DNA of 39,647 bases, taken from positions 1-39,647 of the forward strand of contig JAFSPF010000139.1 of assembly GCA_017443065.1 (NCBI GenBank). The letters run 5' to 3'. The position numbers and the translations under genes are program-made. The DNA is from Lachnospiraceae bacterium (lineage in GTDB: Bacteria; Bacillota; Clostridia; Lachnospirales; Lachnospiraceae). This document shows positions 1 through 35,467 of the stretch, one piece after another (position 1 is the stretch's first letter; each line of letters opens with the position of its first letter). Below the pieces are notes generated by a model. It was not told the DNA's origin. It saw only the letters and a list, made by a program, of their open reading frames with translations, and searched no databases.

Positions 1-141
1 CTCTCACTCCTCCTCGTTATGTATTTTAACACATAACTATGTCGGAGTCAAGAGCGGAATCGAAAAATCTTCAGTATTTACGCGGTTTCACGGCACTTTC
101 ATAGTGACACATAGTGTGGTGTCACGGGAATGCAGGTTCTA
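1..141. other. Non-coding left edge with two small inverted repeats
   Basis: No credible gene is visible here. Two short inverted repeats occur: GTTATGT at 17-23 with ACATAAC at 31-37, and GTGACAC at 104-110 with GTGTCAC at 119-125. The first could be the tail of a terminator belonging to a gene left of the window, but no T-run follows it. The second lies immediately before the tandem repeat and could be a protein-binding site; nothing shows which. Confidence 0.4.
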
Positions 142-318
142 TTCTTTCTATTCTTTCTATTCTTTCTATTCTTTCTATTCTTTCTATTCTTTCTATTCTT
201 TCTATTTTTTTCTATTCTTTCTATTTTTTTCTATTCTTTCTATTTTTTTCTATTCTTTCTATTTCTTTCTATTCTTTCTATTTCTTTCTATTCTTTCTAT
301 TCTTTTCTATTTTTTCTA
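142..318 (+). repeat. 19-unit pyrimidine-rich tandem repeat (9-bp and 19-bp periods)
   Basis: The tract starts with seven perfect copies of the 9-mer TTCTTTCTA (142-204). It then switches to a 10+9 bp alternation that makes six 19-bp composite units (205-318), three beginning TTTTTTTCTA, two beginning TTTCTTTCTA and a degenerate last one. The plus strand has no G at all. The repeat ends about 45 bp upstream of the manC -10 element, so changes in unit number would alter spacing of anything upstream of that promoter. All three forward frames are open through much of it (runs of FYS, LSI or LFF), but this is a by-product of the composition and there is no ribosome binding site for such a peptide. 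Confidence 0.97.
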
Positions 319-332
319 TAATCTGTATGCTT

Positions 333-369
333 CCACGGATGGCGGAACAAAGGGGGAGTGTGGTACAAT
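333..369 (+). promoter_or_regulatory. manC promoter with extended -10 and conserved upstream block
   Basis: The -10 is TACAAT at 364-369, preceded by GTGTGG to give an extended -10. No TTGACA-like -35 is seen at the right distance. Instead the -35 zone lies in a 22-bp block (333-354, beginning CCACGGATGGCGGAACA) that recurs with one mismatch upstream of the desulfoferrodoxin gene (3183-3204, opposite strand) at nearly the same distance from that -10. The conserved block is therefore more likely an operator or activator site than chance. Confidence 0.65.
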
Positions 370-401
370 GAGACAATAACGAAGCATCGGAGGTTTTTAT
401 T

Positions 402-1736
402 TTGGCTTTCCATTTGATTTTACTTTCCGGAGGAAGCGGAAAACGGCTGTGGCCCTTATCCAACGACGTGCGCTCCAAGCAGTTCCTGAAACTGTTTCCG
501 AAGCCGGACGGGACGCATGAATCCATGATCCAGCGCATTTACCGGGAAGCAAAGACCGTCGCAGAGGACGCGACGATCACCGTTGCCACAAGCAAATCAC
601 AGGTTTCCGCCCTGCATAACCAGCTGGGGGAGGACATCTCCATCTCCGTTGAGCCCTGCCGCAGGGACACCTTTCCGGCGATTGCCCTGGCCTCCGCTTA
701 TCTCACGGATGTCAAAGGCGCAAGCCCCTCCGAAGTGGCGGTCGTCTTTCCCGTGGACCCCTTTGTGGAAACGGATTATTTCCGTGCACTGAAGGACTTG
801 AGCATACAGGCCGCAAAGGACGAGGCGGCCATCGCACTCCTCGGCATGGAGCCGACCTATCCTTCCGAAAAATACGGCTACATCATCCCGGAGACGGAGG
901 AACATGTCAGCCGGGTCAAAACATTCCGGGAAAAGCCGGATGAAGAGACCGCAAAAAAATATATCTCGGAGGGCGCCCTCTGGAACGGCGGCGTCTTCGC
1001 CTTCCGTCTGCAATATGTGCTCGACCGTGCGCATGAACAGATGGACTTCACGGATTATCAGGATCTCTTTGCGAAATACAAAACACTGGAAAAGATTTCT
1101 TTCGATTACGCCGTCGTGGAAAAGGAACCCCGCCTGCAGGTGCAACGTTTTGCCGGGACATGGAAGGACCTCGGCACCTGGAACACGCTGACGGAGGCCA
1201 TGGAAGAAAACGTCATCGGTCATGCCTATACCAACGAAAGCTGCAAGGGCGTCCATATCATCAATGAGATGGACGTGCCGGTGCTGGCGATGGGCTTATC
1301 GGACGTCGTGATCAGCGCCTCCCCGGAGGGCATCCTCGTCTCCGACAAGGAGCAGAGCTCCTACATCAAGCCCTATGTGGACAGGATCGATCAGCAGATC
1401 ATGTTTGCGGAAAAAAGTTGGGGAAGCTATCAGGTGATCGATGTGGAAAATGCCTCCGTGACGATCAAGGTCACGCTGCGTCCCGGGCATTCCATGAATT
1501 ATCATTCCCATATGTACCGTGATGAGGTCTGGGTCGTGATCGGCGGCGAGGGCCGGACGCTTGTGGACGGAAAGGAGCAGCAGGTCCGCCCCGGCGATGT
1601 TGTCACGATGCGTGCCGGCAGCAAACATACGGTATTTGCGGATACGGAACTGAAGCTGATTGAGGTTCAGCTGGGCGAAGAAATCAGCGTACAGGATAAA
1701 ATCAAATACGATCTGCCGCCTTCCCTTAAGGCGTGA
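402..1736 (+). CDS. manC: Mannose-1-phosphate guanylyltransferase with C-terminal cupin domain
   Basis: Makes GDP-mannose from mannose 1-phosphate and GTP in the cytoplasm, feeding mannose, fucose or related sugars into surface polysaccharide. The 444-residue protein opens with the nucleotidyltransferase signature LSGGSGKRLWPLSND at residues 8-22, followed by RSKQFL. Later it has the sugar-binding segments EKYGYI, REKPD, WNGGVFAF and GTWKDLGTW. The C-terminal about 110 residues form a type II phosphomannose-isomerase-like cupin (NYHSHMYRDEVW, then RPGDVV). Full-length bifunctional enzymes are slightly longer, so isomerase activity is uncertain. The start is TTG at 402, chosen because CGGAGG lies 8 bases upstream and the protein begins directly at the nucleotide-binding strand. 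The gene stands alone on this strand. Its 3' end overlaps the convergent MBL gene by 11 bp, with no room for a separate terminator. Confidence 0.93.
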   Translation: MAFHLILLSGGSGKRLWPLSNDVRSKQFLKLFPKPDGTHESMIQRIYREAKTVAEDATITVATSKSQVSALHNQLGEDISISVEPCRRDTFPAIALASAYLTDVKGASPSEVAVVFPVDPFVETDYFRALKDLSIQAAKDEAAIALLGMEPTYPSEKYGYIIPETEEHVSRVKTFREKPDEETAKKYISEGALWNGGVFAFRLQYVLDRAHEQMDFTDYQDLFAKYKTLEKISFDYAVVEKEPRLQVQRFAGTWKDLGTWNTLTEAMEENVIGHAYTNESCKGVHIINEMDVPVLAMGLSDVVISASPEGILVSDKEQSSYIKPYVDRIDQQIMFAEKSWGSYQVIDVENASVTIKVTLRPGHSMNYHSHMYRDEVWVVIGGEGRTLVDGKEQQVRPGDVVTMRAGSKHTVFADTELKLIEVQLGEEISVQDKIKYDLPPSLKA

Positions 1737-2730
1737 CGGAGCGCTCCGTCGAGAAGGTCACCGTCTCCCCGTCACTCACACAGGTGATATCCCCCTGTAA
1801 ATCCGTACGGTAAACCGTGATGCTGCGGTTGTTCAGCCTTCGCAGCGTCACCTCATGCGGATGCTCGTAAGGGTTCCCCTCTCCGCAGGAAATCACGCAG
1901 TACGCGGGTGAAACCGCATCCAGAAAGACATCCGTCGAAGAGGAAAAGCTCCCGTGATGCCCGGCCTTTAAGACCGTGGAACGGATATCATCCCCCGTAT
2001 CCAGCACCGAAAGCTCCTCCGCGCTTTCCGCGTCCGCCGTGAACAGAAAGGAAGTATTGCCATAGACAATGCGCAGCATGACGGAGGCATTGTTTTCGAT
2101 CTCCTCCGCCAGCGCCAGATCAACGGGGGCAAGGATGGTCACCTCCGCACTGCCCAGGGAGAAGCGCTCACCCGCCGTCACCGTCACCGCCTGCTTTCCC
2201 TGCGCATCCAGTGCCTCCAGGAAGTTTTCGTAAGCGCGCCCGGTGTATTCACCCGGCGGCACATAGGCCGTGCCGACAGACGCCGCCCTCAGTGCGCCGG
2301 ACAATCCCCCGGCATGATCCTCATGCGCATGGGAACAGACAATGTACTCCAGATGCGTGATCTCCCGGTCCTTCAGCACCGTATAGATCCGGTCGGAATT
2401 CTCCGGAAGTCCCCCGTCGATCAGCATGTGCTGCCCGTCACAGGTGACGAGCGCGGCATCCCCCTCCCCGACATCCAGATACGTCACGGAGAAGCCGCGT
2501 TCCTCATAAGCCTCATCCGTCATGGAGGGCGGCGTCTGCGCCGGTTTCGTGACCTGCACATCCGCAAGGGTGGGCGTCTTCATCCGCGCACGGAGAAAGA
2601 CCATCACGCCGATCAAAGCCCCCATCACCAGGAGGGAGAACACGATCTGCCATTTCAGTGTCTGTTTTTGTTGTTGAAAACGGCGCGACCGCCCCTCAGA
2701 CGGCCGCGCACGCTTGGATCGTTTTGCCAT
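1726..2730 (-). CDS. Membrane-anchored ComEC/Rec2-type metallo-beta-lactamase-fold protein
   Basis: 334 residues. A basic N-terminus (residues 1-25) and one transmembrane helix (about 28-46) are followed by an extracytoplasmic metallo-beta-lactamase domain. The metal-binding motif HAHEDHAGG starts at residue 134 and a GHHGS motif lies further on, the pattern of the stand-alone ComEC C-terminal hydrolase domain. In ComEC this domain is thought to degrade the non-transforming DNA strand. Stand-alone forms are common in Clostridia and their substrate is not established, so a phosphodiesterase role outside the membrane is inference. A GGAG sits 4 bases before the ATG. It follows the desulfoferrodoxin gene on the same strand with a 15-bp gap, so the two are probably co-transcribed. 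Confidence 0.85.
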   Translation of the reverse strand: MAKRSKRARPSEGRSRRFQQQKQTLKWQIVFSLLVMGALIGVMVFLRARMKTPTLADVQVTKPAQTPPSMTDEAYEERGFSVTYLDVGEGDAALVTCDGQHMLIDGGLPENSDRIYTVLKDREITHLEYIVCSHAHEDHAGGLSGALRAASVGTAYVPPGEYTGRAYENFLEALDAQGKQAVTVTAGERFSLGSAEVTILAPVDLALAEEIENNASVMLRIVYGNTSFLFTADAESAEELSVLDTGDDIRSTVLKAGHHGSFSSSTDVFLDAVSPAYCVISCGEGNPYEHPHEVTLRRLNNRSITVYRTDLQGDITCVSDGETVTFSTERSVTP

Positions 2731-2745
2731 ACGGCTCCAAATGAT

Positions 2746-3120
2746 TTACAGATCGGTTTTCCAGAGGCCGTGCAGGTTGCAGTACTCATAAACGGCAACC
2801 GGCGCATCATCCGCCGTCAGCGCAAAGCTTGCCTTCGGCGCGTCGGAAGGATTTAAGACCTTGCGCTGCATGCCCTGCTTTGTTTCCAGGGCAATCCACT
2901 GGATCCAGTGCTCTTCCTGCATCGGATGGGCCACGCTCCCCACATCCACGGTCACGTTCTGTCCGTCCACATTTACCACCGGCACATGCTTTTCGGCGGC
3001 GCCGTCGGAGGTACCGGCCTTCATTTCCTGCATCTCATCACCGCAGCACATGGTCGGGCATGCGGACGGCTGGATCATCCCTACAATCTTTTTACATTTT
3101 GCACACTGATAGAATTTCAT
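2746..3120 (-). CDS. dfx: Desulfoferrodoxin (superoxide reductase, two iron centres)
   Basis: Reduces superoxide to peroxide without making oxygen, a standard defence of strict anaerobes. The 124-residue protein has a complete desulforedoxin-like centre I (C6, C9, C25, C26) and a complete catalytic centre II with ligands H45, H65, H71, C114 and H117 in their usual motifs (HVPVV, AHPMQEEHWIQW, YCNLHGLW). The ATG at 3120 is chosen because AAAGGAG precedes it at normal spacing and the protein starts as family members do; an upstream in-frame extension runs through the promoter and is not used. The promoter is a TATAAT at 3169-3174 (minus), arranged back to back with that of the amidohydrolase gene. 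Confidence 0.95.
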   Translation of the reverse strand: MKFYQCAKCKKIVGMIQPSACPTMCCGDEMQEMKAGTSDGAAEKHVPVVNVDGQNVTVDVGSVAHPMQEEHWIQWIALETKQGMQRKVLNPSDAPKASFALTADDAPVAVYEYCNLHGLWKTDL

Positions 3121-3168
3121 GTCAAAGCTCCTTTCCATACAGTTCCCTGTGGTTTGTGTTGCCGCTCC

Positions 3169-3210
3169 ATTATACCACTTATCCCTCTGTTCCGCCATCC
3201 GTGGTATAAT
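3169..3210. promoter_or_regulatory. Divergent promoter pair with a shared regulatory block
   Basis: Two extended -10 elements face away from each other: minus-strand TGGTATAAT (-10 at 3169-3174) for dfx and plus-strand TGGTATAAT (-10 at 3205-3210) for the amidohydrolase gene. Between them lies a 22-bp block (3183-3204) that is the near-exact reverse complement of the block upstream of manC (333-354). It occupies the -35 zone of the dfx promoter and abuts the other -10, so a protein bound there could control both directions. Confidence 0.7.
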
Positions 3211-3241
3211 AAGATACCATTTCAAAAAACGGAGGTGTGTC

Positions 3242-4627
3242 ATGATCTGTTTCAAGGGCGGTACGGTGGTCAGTGCAAAGGAAAGCTTTCCTGCGGATGT
3301 TCTCGTGGACGGGGAGAGAATCGTCCGGGTGATCCGCGCGGGCGAACAGGCGGACATCCCCGCGGGGGCGGAGGTGATCGACGTTACGGGAAAGCTCCTC
3401 TTCCCGGGCTTTATCGACGCCCATACGCACTTTGACCTGCATGTGGCGGGCACCGTCACCTGCGATGACTTCGCCTCCGGAACCGCCGCGGCCATTGCCG
3501 GCGGCACCACCATGATCATCGACATGGGCACGCAGTACAGGGGCGAAACCCTCCGGGAGGGCATGCGGAACTGGCTGGACAAGGCCGCAGCAGGCGTCTC
3601 CTGTGACTTTTCCATGCACATGTCCATCACCGACTGGAATGAGGAAGCAAGGCTGCAGTGTCAGGACATGATGGACGAGGGCATCACCACCTTCAAGGTC
3701 TACATGACCTATGACACGCAGCTCACGGATAAGGAAATTTTTGAAATCCTGCAGCGTCTGCGTGAGGTCGGCGCCACCACCGGCTGCCACTGCGAAAACG
3801 CCGGCATGATCGACGCCCTGCGCGAGGAGTTTATGAAGGATCACCGCGCAAAGGAGGTGCGCTCGCACTATCTTACCCGCCCCGCCCAGGCGGAGGCCGA
3901 GGCCATTCACCGCTACCTGCGTCTCGCGGAGGTCGCGGACTGTCCCGTGATCGATGTGCACTTAACCTGCGAAGAGGGCTTAAACGAAATCCGTGAGGCC
4001 AGAAAGCGCGGCGTCCGCATCTATGCGGAGACCTGCCCGCAATACCTCACGATGGATGATTCCCTGTATGAGCTTCCGGGCTTTGAGGGGGCAAAGTACG
4101 TAATCGCCCCGCCGCTTCGGAAGAAAAAGGATCAGGATGCGCTCTGGGCGGCGATCGCCTCCGGCGAGATCCAGACCGTCTGCACGGATCACTGCGCCTT
4201 CACGACGGAGCAGAAGAAGCTCGGGATCGATGACTTCCGCAAAATCCCCGGCGGCATGCCCGGCGTGGAAACCCGCGGCGAAGTCATGTTCTCCGAGGGC
4301 GTCGTCAAAGGCCGCATCACCAAAGAACAGTACTGCGCCGTCCTTTCCGAAAACGTGGCGCGTCTCTACGGCTGTTACCCTGGGAAGGGCGTGATCGCGG
4401 AAGGCTCTGACGCGGATATCGTCGTCCTGAATCCGCAGGGCAAAAAGACCATCTCCGTCAAATCCCAGGTCAGCAAATGTGATTACGCACCGCTCGAGGG
4501 AACACAAATCACCGGCACGATCGAGCAGGTCTTTCTGCGCGGCAAAAAAGCGGCCGAAGACGGTGCCGTTGTCACACCTTCCCTCGGCCGCTTCATCAGA
4601 CGTCATCCGCCGGATGTCGCTCTTTAA
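3242..4627 (+). CDS. hydA: Dihydropyrimidinase / D-hydantoinase family amidohydrolase
   Basis: Cyclic-amide hydrolase of the amidohydrolase superfamily that opens dihydropyrimidine or hydantoin-like rings. The 461-residue protein carries the metal ligands HTHFD (H61, H63), the lysine that is carboxylated to bridge the metals (FKVYMTYD, K152), H183 in GCHCEN, a further His in DVHLTCEE and the catalytic Asp in CTDHCAF. KIPGGMPGVETR is the conserved substrate loop. The start at 3242 follows GGAGGTGT; the frame is open upstream but lacks another ribosome binding site. In several anaerobes such enzymes (YgeZ/HyuA type) sit in purine-catabolism clusters with selenium-dependent molybdenum hydroxylase accessory genes, and xdhC and yqeB lie about 7 kb downstream here. 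That link is contextual. A partial second copy of the gene's 3' end lies at 5949-6035. Confidence 0.9.
   Translation: MICFKGGTVVSAKESFPADVLVDGERIVRVIRAGEQADIPAGAEVIDVTGKLLFPGFIDAHTHFDLHVAGTVTCDDFASGTAAAIAGGTTMIIDMGTQYRGETLREGMRNWLDKAAAGVSCDFSMHMSITDWNEEARLQCQDMMDEGITTFKVYMTYDTQLTDKEIFEILQRLREVGATTGCHCENAGMIDALREEFMKDHRAKEVRSHYLTRPAQAEAEAIHRYLRLAEVADCPVIDVHLTCEEGLNEIREARKRGVRIYAETCPQYLTMDDSLYELPGFEGAKYVIAPPLRKKKDQDALWAAIASGEIQTVCTDHCAFTTEQKKLGIDDFRKIPGGMPGVETRGEVMFSEGVVKGRITKEQYCAVLSENVARLYGCYPGKGVIAEGSDADIVVLNPQGKKTISVKSQVSKCDYAPLEGTQITGTIEQVFLRGKKAAEDGAVVTPSLGRFIRRHPPDVAL
4544..4614 (+). repeat. Left copy of 71-bp direct repeat flanking the ATPase gene
   Basis: This copy is the end of the intact amidohydrolase gene. 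It matches 5949-6019 at 65 of 71 positions, with a central perfect run of about 31 bp. Similarity begins in a run of six A and stops abruptly 10 bases before the amidohydrolase stop codon. The two copies bracket an oppositely oriented ATPase gene of different composition. Confidence 0.95.
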
Positions 4628-4663
4628 CTCCTCATTTATATGCATTTTGCGCGGATGAGGAAG

Positions 4664-5818
4664 CTATACTCTCCGCTCTCTTGCCACCGCTACGGCATTG
4701 GAGTTTCTTTTGTCCTGTTTTATATAATCTGCCAGATAAGGAACGCAGAACATCACCTTCCCGTGCTCCGGTGCGGCAATTATGCCATTGTCAATGAGTC
4801 CGGCTCTCGCTTTGCTTAATTTGTTCTGGGCAGCGCCGAGGTTTTTCGCAATAGCAGATGTCAGAGCGAGACGGTCGTCGCCGAGCACGGTTGACATCGC
4901 AGTCAGGTACCTTTTTTCACTGTCCGTCAGTTCTTCTATAAGAGGATCCAATGCACGTCGCTCATACGCCAAAAGCGCGTTTTCGATCGCCACGCGCAAT
5001 TCCTCTTCGCTGGCCTCATGCGTTTTGCCCGGTTTTCCCTCATTGATCCGTGTGATCAGATGAAATCCCAGCAGCTGCATCAAATACGGATGTCCAAAAC
5101 TGGCTTCATTCAGGCTGTCGATGCATATACCGCTGATCCTGCAGCCTTTGATTCCGGAAAACACACCGGAAAAGGCCTCCGCAGTCTCCTGCCAGGTAAA
5201 CAGACCAAGTTCCTCATGCGAGGCTCTGCGCAGATACGTGCAGCCCTCGTTGTGTGTGATTGTTGCATGGGCGTATGGCAGCCCTGCCACAACCAGCATG
5301 ATATCATGCCCTTTCCGGGAAGCCATTTGAAATGCGTTGCAAATGGAAGACATATCCTCCACAGAAACCTTTTGAACTTCATCCACCGTAACAAGAAGTC
5401 CGTTCTTTGCCTTTTCGCAACGCTCCAACAGGAGTGATTGCAGGCTTTCCCTGCCCGCCCGGCTGGTTTTGGAGACTGCCCCTGCACTGATCCCTCCTCC
5501 TATGCCGAGAATGTTTACGCTTGCCTGCGGGCTGACGGTGCTGCTGATTTCATCATAACCCGCAAGTGCACGAACAAGCTGCGCGATCGCATCCTCCGGT
5601 CCGAGATCGATCACGACACGCTTTTTTTCTCGCGCTTTCATGGAAAGTTGCTCCAACAGGGCGGTTTTTCCACAGCCTCGGGTTCCGGTAATGAATAATG
5701 CGCGGTCATCACTGCCCGGATCGATCATGGCCAATTCAAAGCGGTTCAGTATTTCAGTTCGTCCGAAGAACACATCGGGCTTACCCCCGAAAATCGGTGT
5801 AAACGGATTTGCAAACAT
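4664..5818 (-). CDS. P-loop AAA/STAND-type ATPase with C-terminal winged helix
   Basis: 384 residues. The Walker A motif GTRGCGKT is at residues 45-52 and Walker B LLVTVDE at about 141-147. The early segment FTPIFGGKPDVFFGR is typical of the 'ATP-binding protein' family related to archaeal-type and Cdc6/Orc-like ATPases. A C-terminal region from about residue 300 (LTDSEKRYL onward, with LSKARAGLIDNGII) looks like a winged-helix DNA-binding module. Function is unknown; a DNA-linked regulatory or mobile-element role is inference. ATG 5818 is chosen over 5851 because GGAGG precedes it by six bases. The gene looks less GC-rich than its neighbours, has its own strong promoter and sits between two copies of a neighbouring gene's 3' end, all signs of recent acquisition. 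Confidence 0.8.
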   Translation of the reverse strand: MFANPFTPIFGGKPDVFFGRTEILNRFELAMIDPGSDDRALFITGTRGCGKTALLEQLSMKAREKKRVVIDLGPEDAIAQLVRALAGYDEISSTVSPQASVNILGIGGGISAGAVSKTSRAGRESLQSLLLERCEKAKNGLLVTVDEVQKVSVEDMSSICNAFQMASRKGHDIMLVVAGLPYAHATITHNEGCTYLRRASHEELGLFTWQETAEAFSGVFSGIKGCRISGICIDSLNEASFGHPYLMQLLGFHLITRINEGKPGKTHEASEEELRVAIENALLAYERRALDPLIEELTDSEKRYLTAMSTVLGDDRLALTSAIAKNLGAAQNKLSKARAGLIDNGIIAAPEHGKVMFCVPYLADYIKQDKRNSNAVAVARERRV

Positions 5819-5880
5819 GTTTTTCCTCCACCCTGATACCGTCAATGGCATCCGCTATTTCAAAATCTCCGTTTTCTGAA

Positions 5881-5928
5881 ATTATATCCAGAATCTGTTA
5901 AATCTGTCAAGTCTGTCAAATCTGCCTT
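5881..5928 (-). promoter_or_regulatory. Strong ATPase promoter overlapped by four 9-bp repeats
   Basis: On the minus strand TTGACA (5905-5910), an 18-bp spacer and TATAAT (5881-5886) form a near-consensus vegetative promoter for the ATPase gene. Four consecutive 9-mers overlie the -35 and part of the spacer: ATCTGTTAA, ATCTGTCAA, GTCTGTCAA and ATCTGCCTT (5893-5928, plus strand). Direct repeats of about one helical turn over a -35 suggest an operator, perhaps for the winged-helix ATPase itself. Confidence 0.75.
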
Positions 5929-5948
5929 CTGTCACAAAATCTCCGTAT

Positions 5949-6035
5949 AAAAAAGCGACCGAGGACGGTGCTGTTGTCACACCTTCCCTCGGCCGCTTCA
6001 TCAAGCGTCATTCGCCGGAGTTTATCTCCTTCTGA
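5949..6035 (+). pseudogene. Detached 3' end of a second amidohydrolase gene (right repeat copy)
   Basis: An in-frame stretch of 28 codons ending in TGA at 6033-6035 encodes a C-terminal tail nearly identical to that of the intact enzyme up to the residues before its end: KKATEDGAVVTPSLGRF, against KKAAEDGAVVTPSLGRF. It then ends ISF instead of VAL. Of the six differences in the 71-bp match, three are replacements (A to T, R to K, P to S), two are silent, and the sixth falls in the same R-to-K codon. It has no start codon or ribosome binding site and is a remnant. Its end overlaps the stop codon of the convergent surface-protein gene. Confidence 0.88.
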
Positions 6036-8778
6036 TCCGCTGTCTTCTCTTCTTCCCGAAGGCCAGCGCGTTGAAGAGCACGATCCAGGTCGTCGTCATG
6101 ATGGCGAGCAGTCTCGCAATACGCTCCGCCTCATTGTTGTCACCCGTGCGGGAACCGCGGACGGTGGCTTCGTCCTGATCCGCCGTGCCGCTGCGGGAAC
6201 GCGGTCCGCTGTTTGCGGACATGCCGTCCGTTTCCGTCCATTTGGCGTACAGGGTCAGATCCGCGGTGATTGCGGTCGTGTCCATGTCAAAGGGCGTGGT
6301 CCTCGCGGCATCCGTGTACCAGCCATCGAACTCGTAACCTTCCTTCGTGGGCGCAGCGAGCCTTCCGAGCGTTTCGCCCTTGACCACCAGCCGGTCTTCC
6401 ACGACACTTCCGCCGTCCACATCAAATTTCACCTTCCAGGTGTCAACCGTCGCATACCCCACCACATATGTGGAGAACCATCTGGAATAAACATACAAAT
6501 CCGTGCCGTTCACATAGAACGTGGCATCCTTCCAGTCAGCCTTTGCAGGCTTTTCCGTCAGTCTGGTAAAGACCGTCAGCCCCTGATTGCCATGGTTGCG
6601 GACCAGCTGCATGGTGTTCGGATATTTTGTCACGGTGTCCTCCACCGTCAGATGGATTTCCACGACCTGCCCCAGGTCAGGAACATTGGTCTTATCCGAT
6701 TGATTGGTACTCGTGTTCAGCTTGTCCAGTACCACGCCGATATCCAGATACAGCGGCTTGAACTGATCATTCGCTTTCAGCCCGTTGAACAGTTCCTTGA
6801 TCTTCGTGTCAACAGTTGTCTTTTCCGTTCCGGCCGGGGCTTTTGTTTCCACATTCAATGTATACGTCTTGACGTACCCGGTTTCCGCCGACTGCGCCTT
6901 GACAAAATCCTCTAACACCTTGTCGCGGTCCGTCACACCCTTCAATGCGCTGCCGCTGCTGATCTTGACCTCCGGTGTGCCCTGCTTGACTGCTGCTTCC
7001 TTGTCGATGACGATTGTGAATTCTTTTGTGGCTAATCTCTCGACACCAGAAACGGTGCATTTTACCTGGATCGTAAACTTGAATGTCCCTTCTTCTGTCG
7101 GCTTCCCGGAAATCTTTCCACGACTGGTTATATCCAGTCCCTTCGGTAAATTCCCGGAAGAGATAGACCATAAAGGGTTACTGTCCGTTGTACTCGCAAC
7201 CGCAAGTGTTGTCTCCGTATACTGCACATTCACCGTCCCATTGGGCAACTCGGTCGTGGAGATATAGGGTTTCTCGGCATCGACGGTGATGGCGGCTGTG
7301 CCTTTGACACCGCTTCCGTCGCTAGCAGTAGCTGTGATGGTGGCCGTACCGGCTGCAACGCCGGTCACTTTTCCCGTTGTTTTATCTACCGTAGCCACTG
7401 TCGGTTTATCCGACACCCATTCCACGGTTCTAATAGTAGCTTCTGCCGGAACAACCGTCGCTGTCAATGTGACCGTCTCGCTCTTACCGATCGTCTGCGA
7501 CGCGGGGGCAACCGTGATACCGGTGACAGGTCTGTTTTTGACCGTCACTGTCACATCTGCTGTTTTGCCACCGTCTGCTGTCGTGACTGTAATCTTTGAC
7601 GAACCCGCTTTTAACCCTGTTACAACACCGGTCGCGCTTACAGATGCAACATCTTTCGTTGCGGAGTCCCATGTGACGTTTTTATTCGATGCCTCACTCG
7701 GTGTGACAACTGCCTTCAGCGTTTTCGTTTCTCCCACATAGATGTCAAACGACGTAATTGATACATCCTTATCGTCCGTGATGCTGACACCGGTGACCGA
7801 GACATTTGGATCCACTATCGTGATAGTGAATTCCTTGGTCACTGACGAAACCCCATCCGATGCCTGCGCTTTAAAAGTAACATCTCCCGCTGTATTCGGC
7901 GTACCGGTAATTGTCCCGTTCGTATTTAGCGTCAGGTTCTTGGTTGACAGATTGCTTGTAGTCTCACTCCACGTGGCATACGATTTGTTGGCTTTCAGAG
8001 TCTCTGTATACGATTCGCCTTTTTTTCCGCTTTTCAAGGGAGATGTCGAATCGATTGTCAGAGACGTATAGGCAACAATCGTGGCTGTCTTCTGCACTGC
8101 TCCATCGCTACTCAGCACCGTGTCCGGATTCGCACTATTGTTATCCTTTTTTCCTATCCTTCCACCTTCAGGGATTGTGACACCGGCGCTGATCTTGTTC
8201 GCAGCAAATGCCGCATTGGTATTGCCCGTAGATGCAACACTACCACCTGTAACACTAATCTCTGTTGCCCTTATCCCGGAATATCCACTCGCAGTTATGC
8301 TCCCTCCACTGACAGTCAGTGATCCATTGACAAAAAGACCGGCTGTATCAGCAACATCTCCGCCAGTTGCATTTACTGTGCCGTTGGAGATGGTAAATCC
8401 TGCAGAAACTATTCCGCTCTGTGCGCCGATTGCAATTATATTGCCTCCTGTTACCTCAATCGTACCAGTTAAGCTGATTCCGTTGTTAACTATAAGATTC
8501 CCATTTGAGACAATCAGCTTACCCGATCCGTCGATACTGAAAACTGCCAAATCACCATTCACTGTAAAAACAGAACCTGTACTAAGCGCAATCTTGTCCG
8601 TTGCCTTAGGTGATGTTATATCACTACTTGATGCAGTATCGGTGATTGTCCATGTAGCATTATTGCTATCATATGTAGCCGCCGCCCTGACCGTCACCGG
8701 CTTCACCGTAACAGCAAAAACAGACGTCAAGACAATTGACGCCAACACCATGAAGGCTATCTTTCCTCTGGATTTCAT
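6022..8778 (-). CDS. Large secreted multi-domain surface protein (Ig-like and InlB-type repeats)
   Basis: 918 residues. A signal peptide (about 1-32, ending VTVRAA) is followed by a Gly/Ser/Thr-rich region (about 34-230) with beta-helix-like repeats. Next comes a putative He_PIG Ig domain (about 245-325), two BIG2-type Ig domains (about 328-500, with VTGVSITDD and VTGITVAPAS), a second He_PIG domain (about 505-590), and a unique segment (about 590-780). A Listeria-Bacteroides/InlB-type repeat follows (VKFDVDGGSV to LTLYAKW, about 785-855), then a C-terminal transmembrane helix with an arginine-rich tail. There is no LPXTG motif, so it is probably held by the C-terminal helix. The role is likely adhesion or surface display; the ligand is unknown. 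GAAGGAG precedes the ATG. A flagellar-sigma-like -10 lies about 140 bp upstream. Confidence 0.88.
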   Translation of the reverse strand: MKSRGKIAFMVLASIVLTSVFAVTVKPVTVRAAATYDSNNATWTITDTASSSDITSPKATDKIALSTGSVFTVNGDLAVFSIDGSGKLIVSNGNLIVNNGISLTGTIEVTGGNIIAIGAQSGIVSAGFTISNGTVNATGGDVADTAGLFVNGSLTVSGGSITASGYSGIRATEISVTGGSVASTGNTNAAFAANKISAGVTIPEGGRIGKKDNNSANPDTVLSSDGAVQKTATIVAYTSLTIDSTSPLKSGKKGESYTETLKANKSYATWSETTSNLSTKNLTLNTNGTITGTPNTAGDVTFKAQASDGVSSVTKEFTITIVDPNVSVTGVSITDDKDVSITSFDIYVGETKTLKAVVTPSEASNKNVTWDSATKDVASVSATGVVTGLKAGSSKITVTTADGGKTADVTVTVKNRPVTGITVAPASQTIGKSETVTLTATVVPAEATIRTVEWVSDKPTVATVDKTTGKVTGVAAGTATITATASDGSGVKGTAAITVDAEKPYISTTELPNGTVNVQYTETTLAVASTTDSNPLWSISSGNLPKGLDITSRGKISGKPTEEGTFKFTIQVKCTVSGVERLATKEFTIVIDKEAAVKQGTPEVKISSGSALKGVTDRDKVLEDFVKAQSAETGYVKTYTLNVETKAPAGTEKTTVDTKIKELFNGLKANDQFKPLYLDIGVVLDKLNTSTNQSDKTNVPDLGQVVEIHLTVEDTVTKYPNTMQLVRNHGNQGLTVFTRLTEKPAKADWKDATFYVNGTDLYVYSRWFSTYVVGYATVDTWKVKFDVDGGSVVEDRLVVKGETLGRLAAPTKEGYEFDGWYTDAARTTPFDMDTTAITADLTLYAKWTETDGMSANSGPRSRSGTADQDEATVRGSRTGDNNEAERIARLLAIMTTTWIVLFNALAFGKKRRQRIRRR

Positions 8779-9106: not shown

Positions 9107-9964
9107 TTATCCCCGCAGGATGCTTTCTGCCATCGCCTTAGCCTGCTCCTCCGAGAGGCTGGTATCCTGCGCACGGAAATATGCTGCCATCTTCATAAAG
9201 GCTTGCTCTATCCCTTGCTCTATCCCTTGCTCTCTGCCTTCCTCAAAAAACTCCTGATGCACTTCCGCCTCGTTGTACTCTGTCAGCAACATGTCGTGTA
9301 CCTCCGCTTTACGCGCCAGCAGATATTCTGCCAGGATGCCCTTGTCAATGCATTCCGTGACTGCTTTGTCAATTGCCGCTTCCGGCGGCAATTCCTTGCC
9401 GTATCGTCTCACAGCCGCAATAAACTGCGCATACTCCTCCAGTGTCTGCGCCTGCTTCATCAGTTTACGGTTCTTCCCGTAGTTGACATTCAGTACGGTT
9501 GCCTTTACTTCGATACTGCTTTCTTCCGGCTTGTCAAAAGCCGTTGTCAGACGCAGCTCTTCTTTCTCCGGACGTTCCTGTATGCCGTTGTAAAACACAA
9601 TGTAGCGCGGCGTCGGCAATTTCAGCTGTGTCGATGAATGTATGCGAAGCTTTTTGAGCTTGATGTACTTCTCGTACAGCTTCGCAAAATACAACAGTCC
9701 GCGCACCGGCATGTTCGGATTCACGGTGCTCTGGTGCTCAAACAGGTTCATAACACAGGCAATCAGGAACGCAACGTCATTCTTCATGCCCAGATACAAT
9801 GCGTCTTCGATCGTAAAGATTATGATGTCGTCAGGGTTGTCATACTGTGACCCGTTGACGGCATTGTACAGTTCAAGCGTGTTTTCTTTCCGCTCGGCAC
9901 TGCCGAAAAGCGATATAAACAGTCTGTTTTTGTGTTCGCGGCTTACGTTTACTTTGTTTTGCAT
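9107..9964 (-). CDS. Rpn-family / PD-(D/E)XK nuclease family putative transposase
   Basis: 285 residues. The family is related to E. coli RpnA-E recombination-promoting nucleases and is expanded in Lachnospiraceae, where it is usually labelled transposase though classic transposition has not been shown. Visible features are the N-terminal LFISLFG start, the core strand-rich segment TPRYIVFYNG followed by EVKATVLNVNYG (nuclease-fold region), and a C-terminal segment with the short repeat EQGIEQGIEQ, typical of these proteins. The E-x-K of EVKATVLNVN may supply the nuclease acidic/lysine pair. The gene is single, with its own promoter and terminator, and no flanking terminal inverted repeats were found, so it is annotated as a gene rather than as an insertion sequence. 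Confidence 0.82.
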   Translation of the reverse strand: MQNKVNVSREHKNRLFISLFGSAERKENTLELYNAVNGSQYDNPDDIIIFTIEDALYLGMKNDVAFLIACVMNLFEHQSTVNPNMPVRGLLYFAKLYEKYIKLKKLRIHSSTQLKLPTPRYIVFYNGIQERPEKEELRLTTAFDKPEESSIEVKATVLNVNYGKNRKLMKQAQTLEEYAQFIAAVRRYGKELPPEAAIDKAVTECIDKGILAEYLLARKAEVHDMLLTEYNEAEVHQEFFEEGREQGIEQGIEQAFMKMAAYFRAQDTSLSEEQAKAMAESILRG

Positions 9965-11737: not shown

Positions 11738-12769
11738 ATGGACAGATTATCCTTTTTTCAAGAACTCGTGGCACATCCGGCCTTCCGGGACGCGGTGCTT
11801 TGCACCATCCTCTCGGAGGAGGGCTCGACGCCGCGCAAATCCGGCACGCACATGGCCGTCTTTCCGGTCGGAAGCACCGTCGGCACTGTCGGCGGCGGCG
11901 GCGTGGAGCGGATTGCGGCGAAGGAAGCCGCGGAGCTCTTTGCGCTATCCCGCGGCTCATATTTTGTACGGGAATACGATCTTGACGGCACGACACGGGA
12001 CGTGAAGACCGGCATGATCTGCGGCGGTGCCGTGCGGCTCTTCTTCTATTATCCGGATGAGGCGGCGCTTGCCGTGCTGGCAGAAGCGGCGGCACTGCAG
12101 GATGGTGTGGCAAACCGTTATCTCCTGACGGAGATCCCATGCTTTTCCGCGTCCGCCGTCTGTCCCGCGGAACCATCGGTCCTCCTCTCGCTTCTTGATG
12201 AAGCGACACTCCGGGCGCAAACCGGCGGCACATCGCCCCTGCGTCAGCCGCAGCTGAACGGTCACCTTCTGATCGAACCCGTGACCCTCCGCGGCATGGT
12301 GTACCTCTTCGGCTTAGGCCATGTCGGGCGGGCGCTCTATCCCCTGCTCCGCACAACCGGCTTTCCCGTGGTCGTCATCGATGACAGAAAGGAAGCCCTG
12401 GACGAAGTCCTTTTTGCGGACGCCGTAGCCAAACTCTGTCTGCCCTACGGCATGCCTTCGGAGGCGCTGCGCATCACGGAGGATGATCTCGTGGTCATCA
12501 CCACGGCCGGACACCGCGGGGATTTTGAGGTGCTCTCCCTGGTGCTGCCCTTACAGCCCTCCTATATCGGCTGCATCGGCTCCAGGCGCAAGGCCATGAC
12601 GGTCAGCACGCGCCTCCTGGAGGCCGGCTTTCCCGCCACGGAAATTGCAAGGATTCACTCCCCCATCGGCCTGGCGATCGGCGCGCAGACACCTGCGGAG
12701 ATTGCCGTCAGTATCTGTGCGGAGCTGATCGCACACCGCGCCGCACGCAGAAAGGGGGATGCCGTATGA
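11738..12769 (+). CDS. xdhC: XdhC/CoxI family molybdenum-hydroxylase maturation protein
   Basis: Helps insert or sulfurate the molybdenum cofactor of xanthine dehydrogenase-like hydroxylases. The 343-residue protein has the N-terminal XdhC_CoxI segment (EEGSTPRKSGTHMAVFPVGS, then GTVGGGGVE) and a C-terminal Rossmann-like XdhC_C domain (GLGHVGRALYPLL, VIDDRKE, ITTAGHRGD, YIGCIGSRRK, IHSPIGLAIGAQTPAEIA). ATG 11738 follows CGGAGAG and lies downstream of the TATAAT; the upstream frame is therefore not used. The stop overlaps the yqeB start as ATGA, so the two are translationally coupled. No hydroxylase subunit is within the window. Confidence 0.9.
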   Translation: MDRLSFFQELVAHPAFRDAVLCTILSEEGSTPRKSGTHMAVFPVGSTVGTVGGGGVERIAAKEAAELFALSRGSYFVREYDLDGTTRDVKTGMICGGAVRLFFYYPDEAALAVLAEAAALQDGVANRYLLTEIPCFSASAVCPAEPSVLLSLLDEATLRAQTGGTSPLRQPQLNGHLLIEPVTLRGMVYLFGLGHVGRALYPLLRTTGFPVVVIDDRKEALDEVLFADAVAKLCLPYGMPSEALRITEDDLVVITTAGHRGDFEVLSLVLPLQPSYIGCIGSRRKAMTVSTRLLEAGFPATEIARIHSPIGLAIGAQTPAEIAVSICAELIAHRAARRKGDAV

Positions 12770-13554
12770 AACCGCTCGTCCTCATCCGCGGCGCGGGTGA
12801 TATCGCTTCCGGCATTGCACTCCGGCTGTATCATGCGGGCATGCGCATCGTGATGTGCGAGATCGAAGCCCCCACGGCGATCCGCCGCACCGTCGCCTTT
12901 TCGGAGGCCGTGCGGAAGGGGGAAATGCGCGTGGAGGATGTGACGGCCAAACTGTGCGGGGACGCCGCCGAGGCGCTCAACACCGCGAACAACGGCACTA
13001 TCGCCCTGCTCATCGACCCGGAGGCCGCCTGCAAAGAGGCGCTGCGGCCCGATGTCCTCGTCGATGCCATTCTGGCCAAAAAAAACACCGGCACCGTCAT
13101 CACCGATGCGAAGGTCGTGATCGGTGTGGGACCCGGATTCTCCGCAGGCAGGGACTGTCATGCCTGCATCGAAACACAGCGCGGGCATTTCCTGGGCCGC
13201 ACGCTCTATGAAGGAAGCCCCTCCGCCAACACCGGAACCCCCGGCAGCATCGGCGGATTTACATCCGAGCGCCTGCTGCGTGCGCCTGCGGACGGGATAT
13301 TTCATACAGACAGGGAAATAGGGGATATGGCAGAGGCCGGTGAAATCATCGCAACTGTCAATGATATTCCCGTCACTGCACAGATCCCCGGCGTCCTGCG
13401 CGGACTCCTTGCGGATAATACCCCTGTCACAAAGGGCTTCAAATGCGGCGACATTGATCCGCGGGGGGATATCTCCTATTGCGACACCGTCTCTGATAAA
13501 GCTCTCTCGGTCGCCGGCGGTGTGCTGGAAGCCGTCTGTAAGCGGCTGAACTGA
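12766..13554 (+). CDS. yqeB: YqeB, selenium-dependent molybdenum hydroxylase system protein
   Basis: 262 residues of the EF2563/YqeB family, a marker of selenium-dependent (selenide-labile) molybdenum hydroxylases used in purine and xanthine catabolism by anaerobes. The N-terminus VLIRGAGDIASGIALRLYHAG is a Rossmann-type nucleotide-binding turn. Conserved family segments are VVIGVGPGFSAGRDCHACIE, RGHFLGR and a lipoyl/biotinyl-like C-terminal part (RAPADGIFH, AEAGEIIATV, QIPGVLRGLL). Its biochemical role is not settled; it is thought to act in cofactor maturation. It is coupled to xdhC through the ATGA overlap. It converges with the DHFR gene across a 7-bp gap. Confidence 0.92.
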   Translation: MKPLVLIRGAGDIASGIALRLYHAGMRIVMCEIEAPTAIRRTVAFSEAVRKGEMRVEDVTAKLCGDAAEALNTANNGTIALLIDPEAACKEALRPDVLVDAILAKKNTGTVITDAKVVIGVGPGFSAGRDCHACIETQRGHFLGRTLYEGSPSANTGTPGSIGGFTSERLLRAPADGIFHTDREIGDMAEAGEIIATVNDIPVTAQIPGVLRGLLADNTPVTKGFKCGDIDPRGDISYCDTVSDKALSVAGGVLEAVCKRLN

Positions 13555-33392: not shown

Positions 33393-34031
33393 CTACTGGT
33401 GCTTGATAAAGCCGAAATTGGCAAAGGGGTAAATGCGGATCCAGGCCCTGCCGATGATCTGGTCCTCATGGATATTCCCGACCTCGATCCGGCGGCTGTC
33501 CAGGGAATTGTTGCGGTTGTCCCCGAGAACAAAGTACTCCCCCTCCGAAAGCACAACGGGGGTGACCGCCCGTCCGGGGTCCCTGATCACCTCCAGCCCG
33601 TAATGCTCCTCCAGCTGCTCCCCGTTGATCCAGATCCTGCCGTCCTCCGTGATCTGCACGGTCTCCCCCGGCAGCCCGATCACGCGCTTGATGAAGAAGG
33701 TCTCCTCCGACTGCGTGAAGGGAAAGACGACAATGTCAAAGCGGTCCGGATCCCGGAAGCGGTAGCTGATCTTATCCACGAGAAGCGAATCCCCGTCCTC
33801 CAGCATCGGCAGCATGGAATTGCCGGAGACATCCGTCCGCTGCATGACGAAGCGGATGAAAAGAATGGTTACGGTAAACAACACCAGCAGGTACAGGATC
33901 AGACGAAGCAGCTCCGTCTCCCAGAACCGCCGCCTTGCCTTCCCGCTCATTTTCTTCGTTTCGGGCGCATCCGCCTCTTCCGTCAGGTATTCCTCTTCCC
34001 GTTCAGGCTCTCTCAATGGTGAATCTCCCAA
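33393..34031 (-). CDS. lepB: Signal peptidase I (first copy)
   Basis: 212 residues. An acidic cytoplasmic N-terminus (about 1-28) is followed by one membrane helix (about 42-62). The catalytic Ser is in SGNSMLPML (S72) and the general-base Lys in IKRVIGLPG (K115). The FVLGDNRNNSLDSR box completes the family pattern. It cleaves signal peptides of exported proteins outside the membrane. The start is TTG at 34031, supported by AGGGGAGG six bases earlier; it overlaps rbgA by 29 bp. A second signal peptidase gene lies upstream across rbgA. Confidence 0.93.
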   Translation of the reverse strand: MGDSPLREPEREEEYLTEEADAPETKKMSGKARRRFWETELLRLILYLLVLFTVTILFIRFVMQRTDVSGNSMLPMLEDGDSLLVDKISYRFRDPDRFDIVVFPFTQSEETFFIKRVIGLPGETVQITEDGRIWINGEQLEEHYGLEVIRDPGRAVTPVVLSEGEYFVLGDNRNNSLDSRRIEVGNIHEDQIIGRAWIRIYPFANFGFIKHQ

Positions 34032-34875
34032 TTCTGCCTCCCCTGAAATCCGTCAACAACATCACTGCGGCTTTTTCATAATCCGGAAGGGCGCCGCGTC
34101 TGATACAGCCCCGATGAGCGGCAATCGCGGAGAGAATCCCGACAGACTTCAGCTCCGTCTGCTCCTCTTCCATCCGCTCCCTTGCTTCTTCCTCCGTATA
34201 TCCGTAAAAGGAGGACAAGGCCCCCGGATACAGCTCTTCCAGGAGATCGATCGCCTTCAGCGCCAGGGTCTCCATGTCCAGGTTCACGTCATTCATGGAG
34301 CCGATCAGCGCCAGATGCTCTCCGGTTACCTTATCGTCAAACTTCGGCCAGAGCACGCCAGGGGTGTCTAAGAGCTTCACCCCGTCCGGAAGCGAAATCC
34401 ACTGCTTGCCGCGGGTCACGCCCGGCCGGTTTTCGGTCTTCGTGACGGCACTCCCCGCCAGGCGGTTGATGAAGGTGGATTTGCCCGCATTGGGGATGCC
34501 GCAGACCATGGCGCGGATCTGCGCGTTCATGCCCTTTGCGCGGTCGCGCTCCGCCTTTTCCTTTGTCAGACGCCTGATCGCCTCCCGGATCCGTTTCTCC
34601 GCCCCCTGTGCCGCGGTGTTGCAGGCAAGGGTTTCCAGCCCCTTCTCCCGGAAGTACTGCTCCCAGCGTTTGTTTTCGGCCTCATCCGCAAGGTCCGCCT
34701 TGTTCAGGATGAGCAGCCGTTTCTTGCCCTCGCTTAAGGCGTCGATGTCCGGATTCCGCGAAGAAAGGGGAATCCTCGCATCCGCCAGCTCAATCACCAG
34801 GTCCGCCGGTGCGATCTGTTCGCGCATCATGCGGATGGCCTTTGTCATATGTCCGGGGTACCACTGATAGTCCAT
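34003..34875 (-). CDS. rbgA: Ribosome biogenesis GTPase RbgA (YlqF)
   Basis: 290-residue circularly permuted GTPase needed for late assembly of the 50S subunit. Order of motifs: WYPGHMTKA at the start, G4 NKADL (58-62), G1 GIPNAGKST (126-134), G2 around GVTRGKQ, and G3 DTPGV (170-174). A C-terminal helical domain follows. It overlaps the downstream lepB start by 29 bp and sits in the classic rplS-rbgA-rnhB neighbourhood. Confidence 0.96.
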   Translation of the reverse strand: MDYQWYPGHMTKAIRMMREQIAPADLVIELADARIPLSSRNPDIDALSEGKKRLLILNKADLADEAENKRWEQYFREKGLETLACNTAAQGAEKRIREAIRRLTKEKAERDRAKGMNAQIRAMVCGIPNAGKSTFINRLAGSAVTKTENRPGVTRGKQWISLPDGVKLLDTPGVLWPKFDDKVTGEHLALIGSMNDVNLDMETLALKAIDLLEELYPGALSSFYGYTEEEARERMEEEQTELKSVGILSAIAAHRGCIRRGALPDYEKAAVMLLTDFRGGRIGRFTIERA

Positions 34876-34912
34876 TGACTGCTCCTTCCGTCCCGGACAT
34901 CATTTTTTCTTT

Positions 34913-35467
34913 TCAGTCCACGCGCCAGACGCGGCCCATCACCCGGTCTCTCGTCACCAGGCCGATGTTGGCGCTGCGGGAATCCTCCGAATTATTGCGG
35001 TTATCCCCGAGCACAAAGAACTCCCCGCTCTGCAGCGTGATCTCCTGCGCGGCAATTCCCGCGTCCTGCATCCGGTCGTATCCCGAATCATCCTGCGCCT
35101 CGCCGTTCACGTACAGGATGCCGTCCGTAATCCGCACCGTGTCGCCGCCGACGGCCACAATCCGCTTGACATAGGTCCTTGTGCGGCCGGCCCCGCCGTA
35201 AAAGACGATGACATCATCCCGCGCGGGCTGAGACATCTGATAGGCCAGACGGTTCACCCAGACACGCTGTCCGCTGTAGATCTCCGGCTCCATAGAATCA
35301 CCGGACATCTCCACCGTCCGGAAAAACGCAAGCGCGATCAAGACCGCAACCAGAACCGCAGCGACCGTCAGGATCAGCCAGGTGGCAATTTCCTTAACGA
35401 GCTGCGGCGTGAGTTTCCGCTCCGCCTGAAACGCGGAGCTTCTGCGTCTGCGTCGCCTTCGGTTCAT
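34913..35467 (-). CDS. lepB: Signal peptidase I (second copy)
   Basis: 184 residues. A very basic N-terminus (seven Arg in a row), a membrane helix (about 28-48), catalytic Ser in SGDSMEPEI (S58), Lys in VKRIVAVGGD (K101), and FVLGDNRNNSEDSR. It is shorter than the other copy and would face outside the membrane. Its ATG lies nine bases after a TATAAT and has no Shine-Dalgarno, so it is a leaderless candidate. It sits directly after the rplS terminator, heading the rbgA-lepB-rnhB-FliK-like-FlhB-like series. Confidence 0.93.
   Translation of the reverse strand: MNRRRRRRRSSAFQAERKLTPQLVKEIATWLILTVAAVLVAVLIALAFFRTVEMSGDSMEPEIYSGQRVWVNRLAYQMSQPARDDVIVFYGGAGRTRTYVKRIVAVGGDTVRITDGILYVNGEAQDDSGYDRMQDAGIAAQEITLQSGEFFVLGDNRNNSEDSRSANIGLVTRDRVMGRVWRVD

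Follow-up and report, generated by a model that had tools for sequence, protein, structure and literature searches.

A single AAA_16 ATPase gene between two copies of a hydA gene end in a Lachnospiraceae genome: a probable target-duplicating insertion with a phased-repeat promoter

We analyzed a stretch of 39,647 nucleotides from a Lachnospiraceae bacterium (assembly GCA_017443065.1, contig JAFSPF010000139.1, genome G000; this whole stretch is called the window below), in which a single ATPase gene lies between two copies of the 3′ end of hydA. The intact hydA (positions 3242–4627, plus strand) encodes a D-hydantoinase/dihydropyrimidinase (TIGR02033 of NCBIfam, 546 bits versus a cutoff of 393), and its last codons contain the left copy of a 71-bp direct repeat (4544–4614). 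The neighboring gene, on the minus strand, encodes a 384-residue AAA_16 ATPase (4664–5818; PF13191, 44.1 bits versus a cutoff of 32.6), and upstream of it, on the same strand, a consensus σ70-type promoter (TTGACA-18-TATAAT, 5881–5910) overlaps an array of 9-bp phased direct repeats resembling CAGATTTGA (5883–5937). The right copy of the repeat (5949–6019) is followed by the minus-strand gene of a surface protein with Big_2 and Flg_new Pfam domains (6022–8778). With the repeat ends as boundaries, the candidate inserted island spans 1334 bp (4615–5948) and holds the promoter array, the ATPase gene and about 50 bp beyond the 3′ end of that gene.

The repeat had been noticed in a first-pass annotation made without database searches. 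On re-measurement its copies are identical at 65 of 71 positions (91.5% by BLAST), and positions 4530–4640, used as a query against the assembly (2.83 Mb in 144 contigs), matched these two places only, the second with an E value of 6e-23. The layout described at that stage also holds: the left copy is the end of an intact hydA, one minus-strand ATPase gene stands between the copies, and the right copy is a tail in the hydA frame (KKATEDGAVVTPSLGRFIKRHSPEFISF and stop) that contains no ATG, GTG or TTG codon and ends at its own stop (6033–6035), overlapping the 3′ end of the surface-protein gene (stop at 6022). Equally, no recombinase exceeded the Pfam cutoff among the 26 window proteins scanned (the remaining window open reading frames, ORFs, were outside the scan). 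A comparison of GC content at third codon positions, of the kind suggested in that annotation, gave a divided answer: the ATPase gene (0.55) differs from hydA (0.77), but the surface-protein gene is equally low (0.56).

Two features of the locus had been missed: terminator-like hairpins in both copies and an array of phased repeats over the ATPase promoter. On the minus strand, each copy is predicted to form a long GC stem with six U behind it. The hairpin of the left copy, downstream of the ATPase gene, covers about 4547–4594 with a U tract at about 4544–4549 (−37.6 kcal/mol), and that of the right copy, directly behind the surface-protein gene, about 5952–5999 (−36.8 kcal/mol); none of 200 shuffles was as stable in either case, and for longer pieces around the copies the counts were 1 and 0 of 200. 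The predicted structure is identical in both copies, so the stem stays paired despite the differences between them. Folding makes it likely that both copies are intrinsic terminators, the right one behind the surface-protein gene and the left one behind the ATPase gene. A simple terminator scan reports neither site, probably because it allows loops of 3 to 8 nucleotides only.

The nearest relative found is locus L066 (metagenome-assembled genome "Lachnospiraceae bacterium RGIG7864", within the same genus set as the window genome), whose HydA is 84% identical. It has recognizable counterparts of the first four window genes and a gene sharing the C-terminus of the surface protein, and the ATPase ortholog is absent from its assembly (best match 31%). 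The first window gene, which we take to encode a mannose-1-phosphate guanylyltransferase, is flipped relative to a metallo-beta-lactamase gene between the two loci (402–1736, plus strand, in the window; 5019–6347, minus strand, in L066), a local inversion.

The hydA ends indicate which side of the island is older. Those of the relatives read ..RRHKPEL (L066), ..GRFIKRHAPEMFDL (G145) and ..GRFVRRHGSEGVSAKPSF (G054, a genome also labeled G147), each before the stop; in the window the right copy ends in ..GRFIKRHSPEFISF and the left copy in ..GRFIRRHPPDVAL. With the end residues aligned, the right copy (..SPEFISF) has the PE of L066 (..KPEL) and G145 (..APEMFDL) and the same distance to the stop as G145, and the left copy, where hydA ends in ..DVAL, departs from the ortholog-like end exactly at the repeat boundary. 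To judge from these residues, the pre-insertion end of hydA is probably the one on the right, with 6020–6035 (plus strand, overlapping the 3′ end of the surface-protein gene) as its likely original last codons and stop. Because this older-looking end lies on the far side, the present last codons of hydA (..DVAL and stop) seem to be island DNA. The first-pass annotation had proposed an element that integrated in a gene 3′ end and restored hydA with a carried copy; this polarity, together with four sibling islands described below, supports an insertion with a duplicated gene end, but the polarity gives no support to the carried, restoring copy. By eye against L066, the six differences between the copies divide into two that look derived on the left, three that do so on the right and one without a clear assignment. 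No duplication of the hydA tail was found in L066, G145 or G054.

An alignment of the ATPase family shows a GxRGxGKT motif, an invariant DE and a conserved C-terminal region, and the sequence suggests that this last region is a winged helix, as first assigned by the initial reader. Profile searches returned generic AAA+ and helix-turn-helix (HTH) matches, such as ClpB, DnaA, Orc4/Cdc6 and ArsR-type proteins among the best 60 of 112, and the match of the C-terminal part to ArsR-type regulators was weak (E 0.004). A single-sequence search detected no structurally solved relative, an NCBIfam search gave matches below cutoff only, and PADLOC returned no match beyond the P-loop, its sole match being 8.5e-4 over 26 residues. 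We know of no function for AAA_16 ATPase relatives of this kind.

At E ≤ 1e-40, the ATPase is present in 6 of 79 genomes of the genus including its own, the other copies being 60 to 69% identical and that of G014 broken. Because the flanks in G042 and G085 are nearly identical, these six genomes provide five different neighborhoods, which do not support the idea that the element targets hydA; hydA is not a special target. Family members at 1e-25 occur in 9 of 291 Clostridia genomes, again including its own. Distant relatives are found on 97 of 72,556 plasmid records, mostly annotated "ATP-binding protein", with no constant neighbor gene across the eleven plasmid regions viewed. A phage origin was considered and rejected, as 50,697 phage records held one distant relative (26%) and three viral-contig scans yielded one locus (L231).

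Phased promoter arrays recur across this family. We scored the best 45-bp match at a lag of 9 or 10 within 200 bp upstream, with a threshold of 0.56, for 43 of 46 ATPase loci (L054, L056 and L104 had no usable start). At least 0.56 was reached by 37 of the 43; among the controls, 14 of 758 upstream regions taken from four genomes and 6 of 188 intergenic sequences did so. For 35 of the 43, no more than one in 100 dinucleotide shuffles matched the score. Seven of nine members fetched later also passed, the two failures being the weakest family matches. Since related sequences are not independent, the p-values for the arrays overstate the significance. All five intact copies of the genus have 9-bp-spaced repeats upstream (lag-9 p 0.005 to 0.015 versus shuffles). 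For the window array, the lag-9 p is 0.005 and no shuffle out of 30 had as high a word count; a search for its tandem motif that tolerated one mismatch found a single site in each of G000 and G054, both at this promoter, and none in G103.

Scored by word count, 33 of 54 arrays were significant (58 loci were entered; L054, L056, L104 and L106 lack a 300-residue protein), and in these 33 the most frequent spacings are 10 bp (111 occurrences), 19 bp (40) and 9 bp (29). The array of the G085 ortholog was not (2 of 30 shuffles as high). Among plasmid and phage members, L219, L227 and L228 were significant, L228 without 9- to 10-bp spacing; such words are visible in plasmid L218, but 11 of 30 shuffles were as high, and L221, L223 and L224 have none. 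Promoters resembling σ70 sites at 10 or more of 12 positions accompany 19 of 39 arrays and overlap the array in 17; shuffles yield 1.4 such promoters. The words of eight G000 paralogs are mostly unlike one another (cosine up to 0.25, except 0.35 for L107/L108 and 0.62 for L108/L109), and among 48 members (L057, L110, L221, L223, L224 and L228 additionally left out) word similarity tracks protein similarity (r about 0.7, Mantel 0/500). Further examples of phased 9- to 10-bp arrays, mostly paralog-specific and often overlapping promoters, are L036, L041, L058, L098 and L234.

Beyond the window, four islands in three genomes are bracketed by repeats of 66 to 239 bp that are the 3′ ends of other genes, giving lengths of 66, 71, 132, 156 and 239 bp at five targets with the window included. 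In L066, 156-bp copies (12361–12516 and 13353–13508, 95.5%) of a surface-gene 3′ end with a terminator-like hairpin enclose an overlapping 94-residue ORF and a 157-residue retropepsin-like ORF (cargo at 12524–13278; PF13650 below cutoff, PADLOC PDC-M08B 8e-5), and this further island, too, lies between hydA and a surface-type gene. L114 in G054 has 132-bp copies (97.7%) of the 3′ end of a 701-residue ORF around an ATPase ortholog (69% identical), an instance of the same ATPase flanked by a different gene end, which the first-pass annotation had proposed to look for; its other cargo comprises a DUF3990 gene (PDC-M42A 5e-39), an HTH gene (PDC-M42B 8e-9) and a TPR-matching ORF. At L115, also in G054, the 239-bp repeat (98.7%) is the stretch where a selD-like gene (with AIRS domains) and a second gene, presumably ridA, converge and overlap at their ends, and the cargo is a 691- and a 105-residue ORF without Pfam matches. 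L122, in the window's own genome, has 66-bp copies (97%) of the end of an ORF with YFSSDRTIRDYNRDIWRL, which we take to be glycogen phosphorylase, and its island (1042–4539) holds a 363-residue ORF, an HTH gene and a PDC-M03A-like gene (3e-9). A mad3-like PADLOC match at L122 was rejected as cargo, being an ABC-transporter gene by Pfam and outside the island.

In these sibling islands, the intact and start-less copies are positioned as target duplication predicts. No core shared among the bracketing repeats was seen by eye, and no recombinase above cutoff was found among the cargo proteins scanned from L066, L114, L115 and L122. Candidates for defense-type cargo are present in L114, L122 and, weakly, L066, with none beside the ATPase in the window island; as to a cellular role they are suggestive only. 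Bracketing was seen at 3 of 18 ATPase loci and at 8 of 262 genes used as controls (p 0.027 by Fisher's test), or at 2 of 17 ATPase loci with the window excluded (p 0.12), and the other bracketed islands hold unrelated genes; bracketing specific to the ATPase is thus not established. Long repeats in G085 (L116a, L183) and G054 (L153, L162) were rejected as evidence of islands, being dispersed; of the intergenic repeats in L172 and L183 (G085) and L153 and L162 (G054), several are dispersed families and some are palindromic. L122 (G000:C86) also contains, at 2785–3156 and 6281–8241, pieces ordered A-B-C at one place and B′-C′-ATPase-A′ at the other, where piece C, the promoter array of an ATPase paralog, stands in front of an HTH gene as well; this looks like the remnant of a tandem or circular ATPase unit.

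We consider it fairly probable that an ATPase module entered the junction between hydA and the gene of the surface protein, duplicating a target of 71 bp, and that the ATPase binds its array and regulates itself. Ancestrally, hydA (plus strand) and the surface-protein gene (minus strand) would have been convergent with overlapping ends, the GC-rich end of hydA serving, on the minus strand, as terminator of the surface gene as well. A module of 1.33 kb, made up of the phased-repeat promoter and the ATPase gene and without a recombinase of its own, would then have been inserted with duplication of 71 bp of target. As a result, hydA would still have a full tail, now closed by a few codons of the island, the surface gene would have kept its terminator and the ATPase gene would have gained one. 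The ATPase probably binds the 9-bp-phased words through its C-terminal winged helix, as an AAA+ assembly running head to tail, and would thereby repress or tune its own expression; cooperative binding of this kind, and self-control, are suggested by the pairing of an AAA+ protein whose C-terminal region resembles a winged helix with sites spaced by about one turn of the DNA helix. What the data show are the repeat, its predicted hairpins, the ends of hydA in relatives, the missing ATPase ortholog in the L066 assembly and the arrays; the origin of the duplication at insertion, the function of the hairpins as terminators, binding of the array by the ATPase and any role in the cell are inferred.

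Several observations weigh against this account. No insertion enzyme has been identified, and no genome with an uninterrupted junction of hydA and the surface gene, which the first-pass annotation had suggested looking for among relatives, was found: L066 has a 210-residue ORF and a DUF3160 gene between the two and is not a clean empty site. The polarity depends on one codon and the length to the stop, and G054 has SE, not PE. The hairpin at the L066 hydA end is similar but no better than shuffles (z −0.65), and folding of the hydA ends of G145 and G054 gave no similar hairpin. The five bracketed islands were all found among 20 sequences picked for holding hydA or an ATPase relative, and 80 content-blind stretches (1.31 Mb from four genomes: 289 kb of G000, 370 kb of G054, 400 kb of G085 and 246 kb of G103) contained no clear two-copy gene-end pair; a GNAT-fragment pair in L164 is possible, and the remaining pairs are dispersed, paralogous or internal to a single gene. 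Direct repeats of at least 45 bp also occur, among 33 hydA loci, in five distant ones (L067, L078, L089, L092 and L093), so such pairs are not very rare. With regard to the array, another protein could bind it, the array of the G004 ortholog is not significant by word count (8 of 30 shuffles as high), nor are those of 9 of 12 plasmid or phage members, and word similarity follows the AAA part no less closely than the winged helix (partial r 0.30 versus 0.15), with no covariation specific to the winged helix emerging.

Among the alternatives, Campbell-type integration survives best, although we regard it as unlikely. A circle with the ATPase gene and a donor hydA tail would have crossed over within the recipient hydA tail, giving identical anatomy, with donor and recipient accounting for the copy differences; the window copies do differ by 8%, compared with 1 to 5% in the four other pairs, and the order of the pieces in L122 is the one that a circular or tandem ATPase unit would leave. 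However, the copies (92% alike) are closer to each other than to L066 or G145 (left copy versus L066, 82% over 62 bp), the sibling islands use different target genes, for each of which a circle would need a matching tail, and the ATPase adjoins hydA in none of the four near-relative hydA loci read (L004, L066, L067 and L215).

The same four loci contain no paired complete hydA copies, adjacent or in decay, contrary to the collapsed tandem duplication of hydA once offered as an alternative. A tandem duplication of the hydA tail together with the ATPase, followed by loss of one ATPase, would account for the start-less right tail, and tandem duplications are common. This route is very unlikely: the right junction resembles an ancestral hydA end and not a deletion scar, the stop of the surface gene (6022) comes directly after the repeat, and the same pattern recurs with unrelated cargo. 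A shade less probable still is the remnant of an integrase-borne island with the hydA 3′ end as attachment site and the integrase lost; attL and attR in a gene 3′ end give a similar layout, but the scanned proteins of the window and of the sibling cargo lack a recombinase, and targets and repeat lengths vary without a visible core. That the repeat is a dispersed terminator-like element unrelated to any insertion is scarcely credible and was rejected: it is a hairpin, and G054 and G085 do contain other, dispersed intergenic repeats, but it has two copies only in the assembly and the left one is hydA coding sequence.

Elsewhere in the window, a Rpn/Transposase_31-like gene (9107–9964, minus strand; matches below cutoff only) has a homolog of 60% identity in G054 and merely partial matches elsewhere in G000 and in G103; apart from its presence, nothing speaks for or against it as the insertion enzyme. 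At 104–379 (plus strand), overlapping ORFs are runs of F, L, S and Y in three frames, which implies a T/C-rich simple repeat. A GTPase gene lies between two signal peptidase (Peptidase_S26) genes at 33396–35467 (minus strand), and a 38-bp repeat (33505/34989) inside both of these is probably a shared coding motif.

Returning to the target-duplicating insertion, the window module is probably a one-gene, self-regulated AAA+/winged-helix module. A broader proposal, which we hold tentatively and rate as doubtful, is that such one-gene modules are widespread in Clostridia and on some actinobacterial plasmids, with private, helically phased operator arrays (a grammar of 10, 9 and 19 bp), each read by its own ATPase, as autonomous self-regulating elements or sensors; being complete in about 1.3 kb, they would settle as orphans, in the window at a gene end through a target-duplicating insertion without recombinase. 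No description of autonomous self-regulating elements of this kind was found in the partly accessible literature searched. The locus shows a route by which a gene could be added at a gene end with both neighbors unbroken: as the duplicated stretch is a likely terminator, neither the old nor the new gene is left without a stop. With five cases in three related genomes, insertion of this recombinase-free, target-duplicating type becomes testable outside Helicobacter, and the promoter arrays of most paralogs offer a predicted binding site with spacing rules, and thereby a handle on ATPases annotated mostly "ATP-binding protein".

Integrase islands in gene 3′ ends have the gene end duplicated on both sides; unlike these, the window island has no recombinase found and no common core was seen. 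The ATPase itself is like other AAA_16 ATPases in its Pfam match, GxRGxGKT motif, invariant DE and conserved C-terminal region. Iteron and partition loci (parMRC) and BldC-type binders have short head-to-tail repeats over a gene's promoter, and the phased direct repeats at the ATPase's own promoter, present beyond chance, are similar. The difference is that here one gene combines an ATPase and a putative DNA-binding part in a single chain, no constant partner gene was seen, and the words differ between most ATPase paralogs. In the excerpts of the literature available to us, no published description of promoter arrays at AAA_16 ATPase genes was found. The arrays are the more novel part of the finding; the type of event, presented at first as a new kind of cassette, has a precedent.

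That precedent is insertion with long target duplication, reportedly described by Nobusato et al. (Gene, 2000) in Helicobacter pylori. In further reports, such insertions in H. pylori often involve restriction-modification genes (PMC1643837, PMC3031569, PMC4978471). The window differs in its phylum, in its cargo, which is an AAA+ ATPase and not a restriction-modification system, and in its target, a gene end doubling as a likely terminator; it also lacks a strain pair with the uninserted junction, which leaves membership unproven. By analogy, however, the window event resembles such an insertion in how it would work, with a small gene unit between long, variable direct repeats of the target, and here, too, the five cases differ in target and in the length of the repeat.

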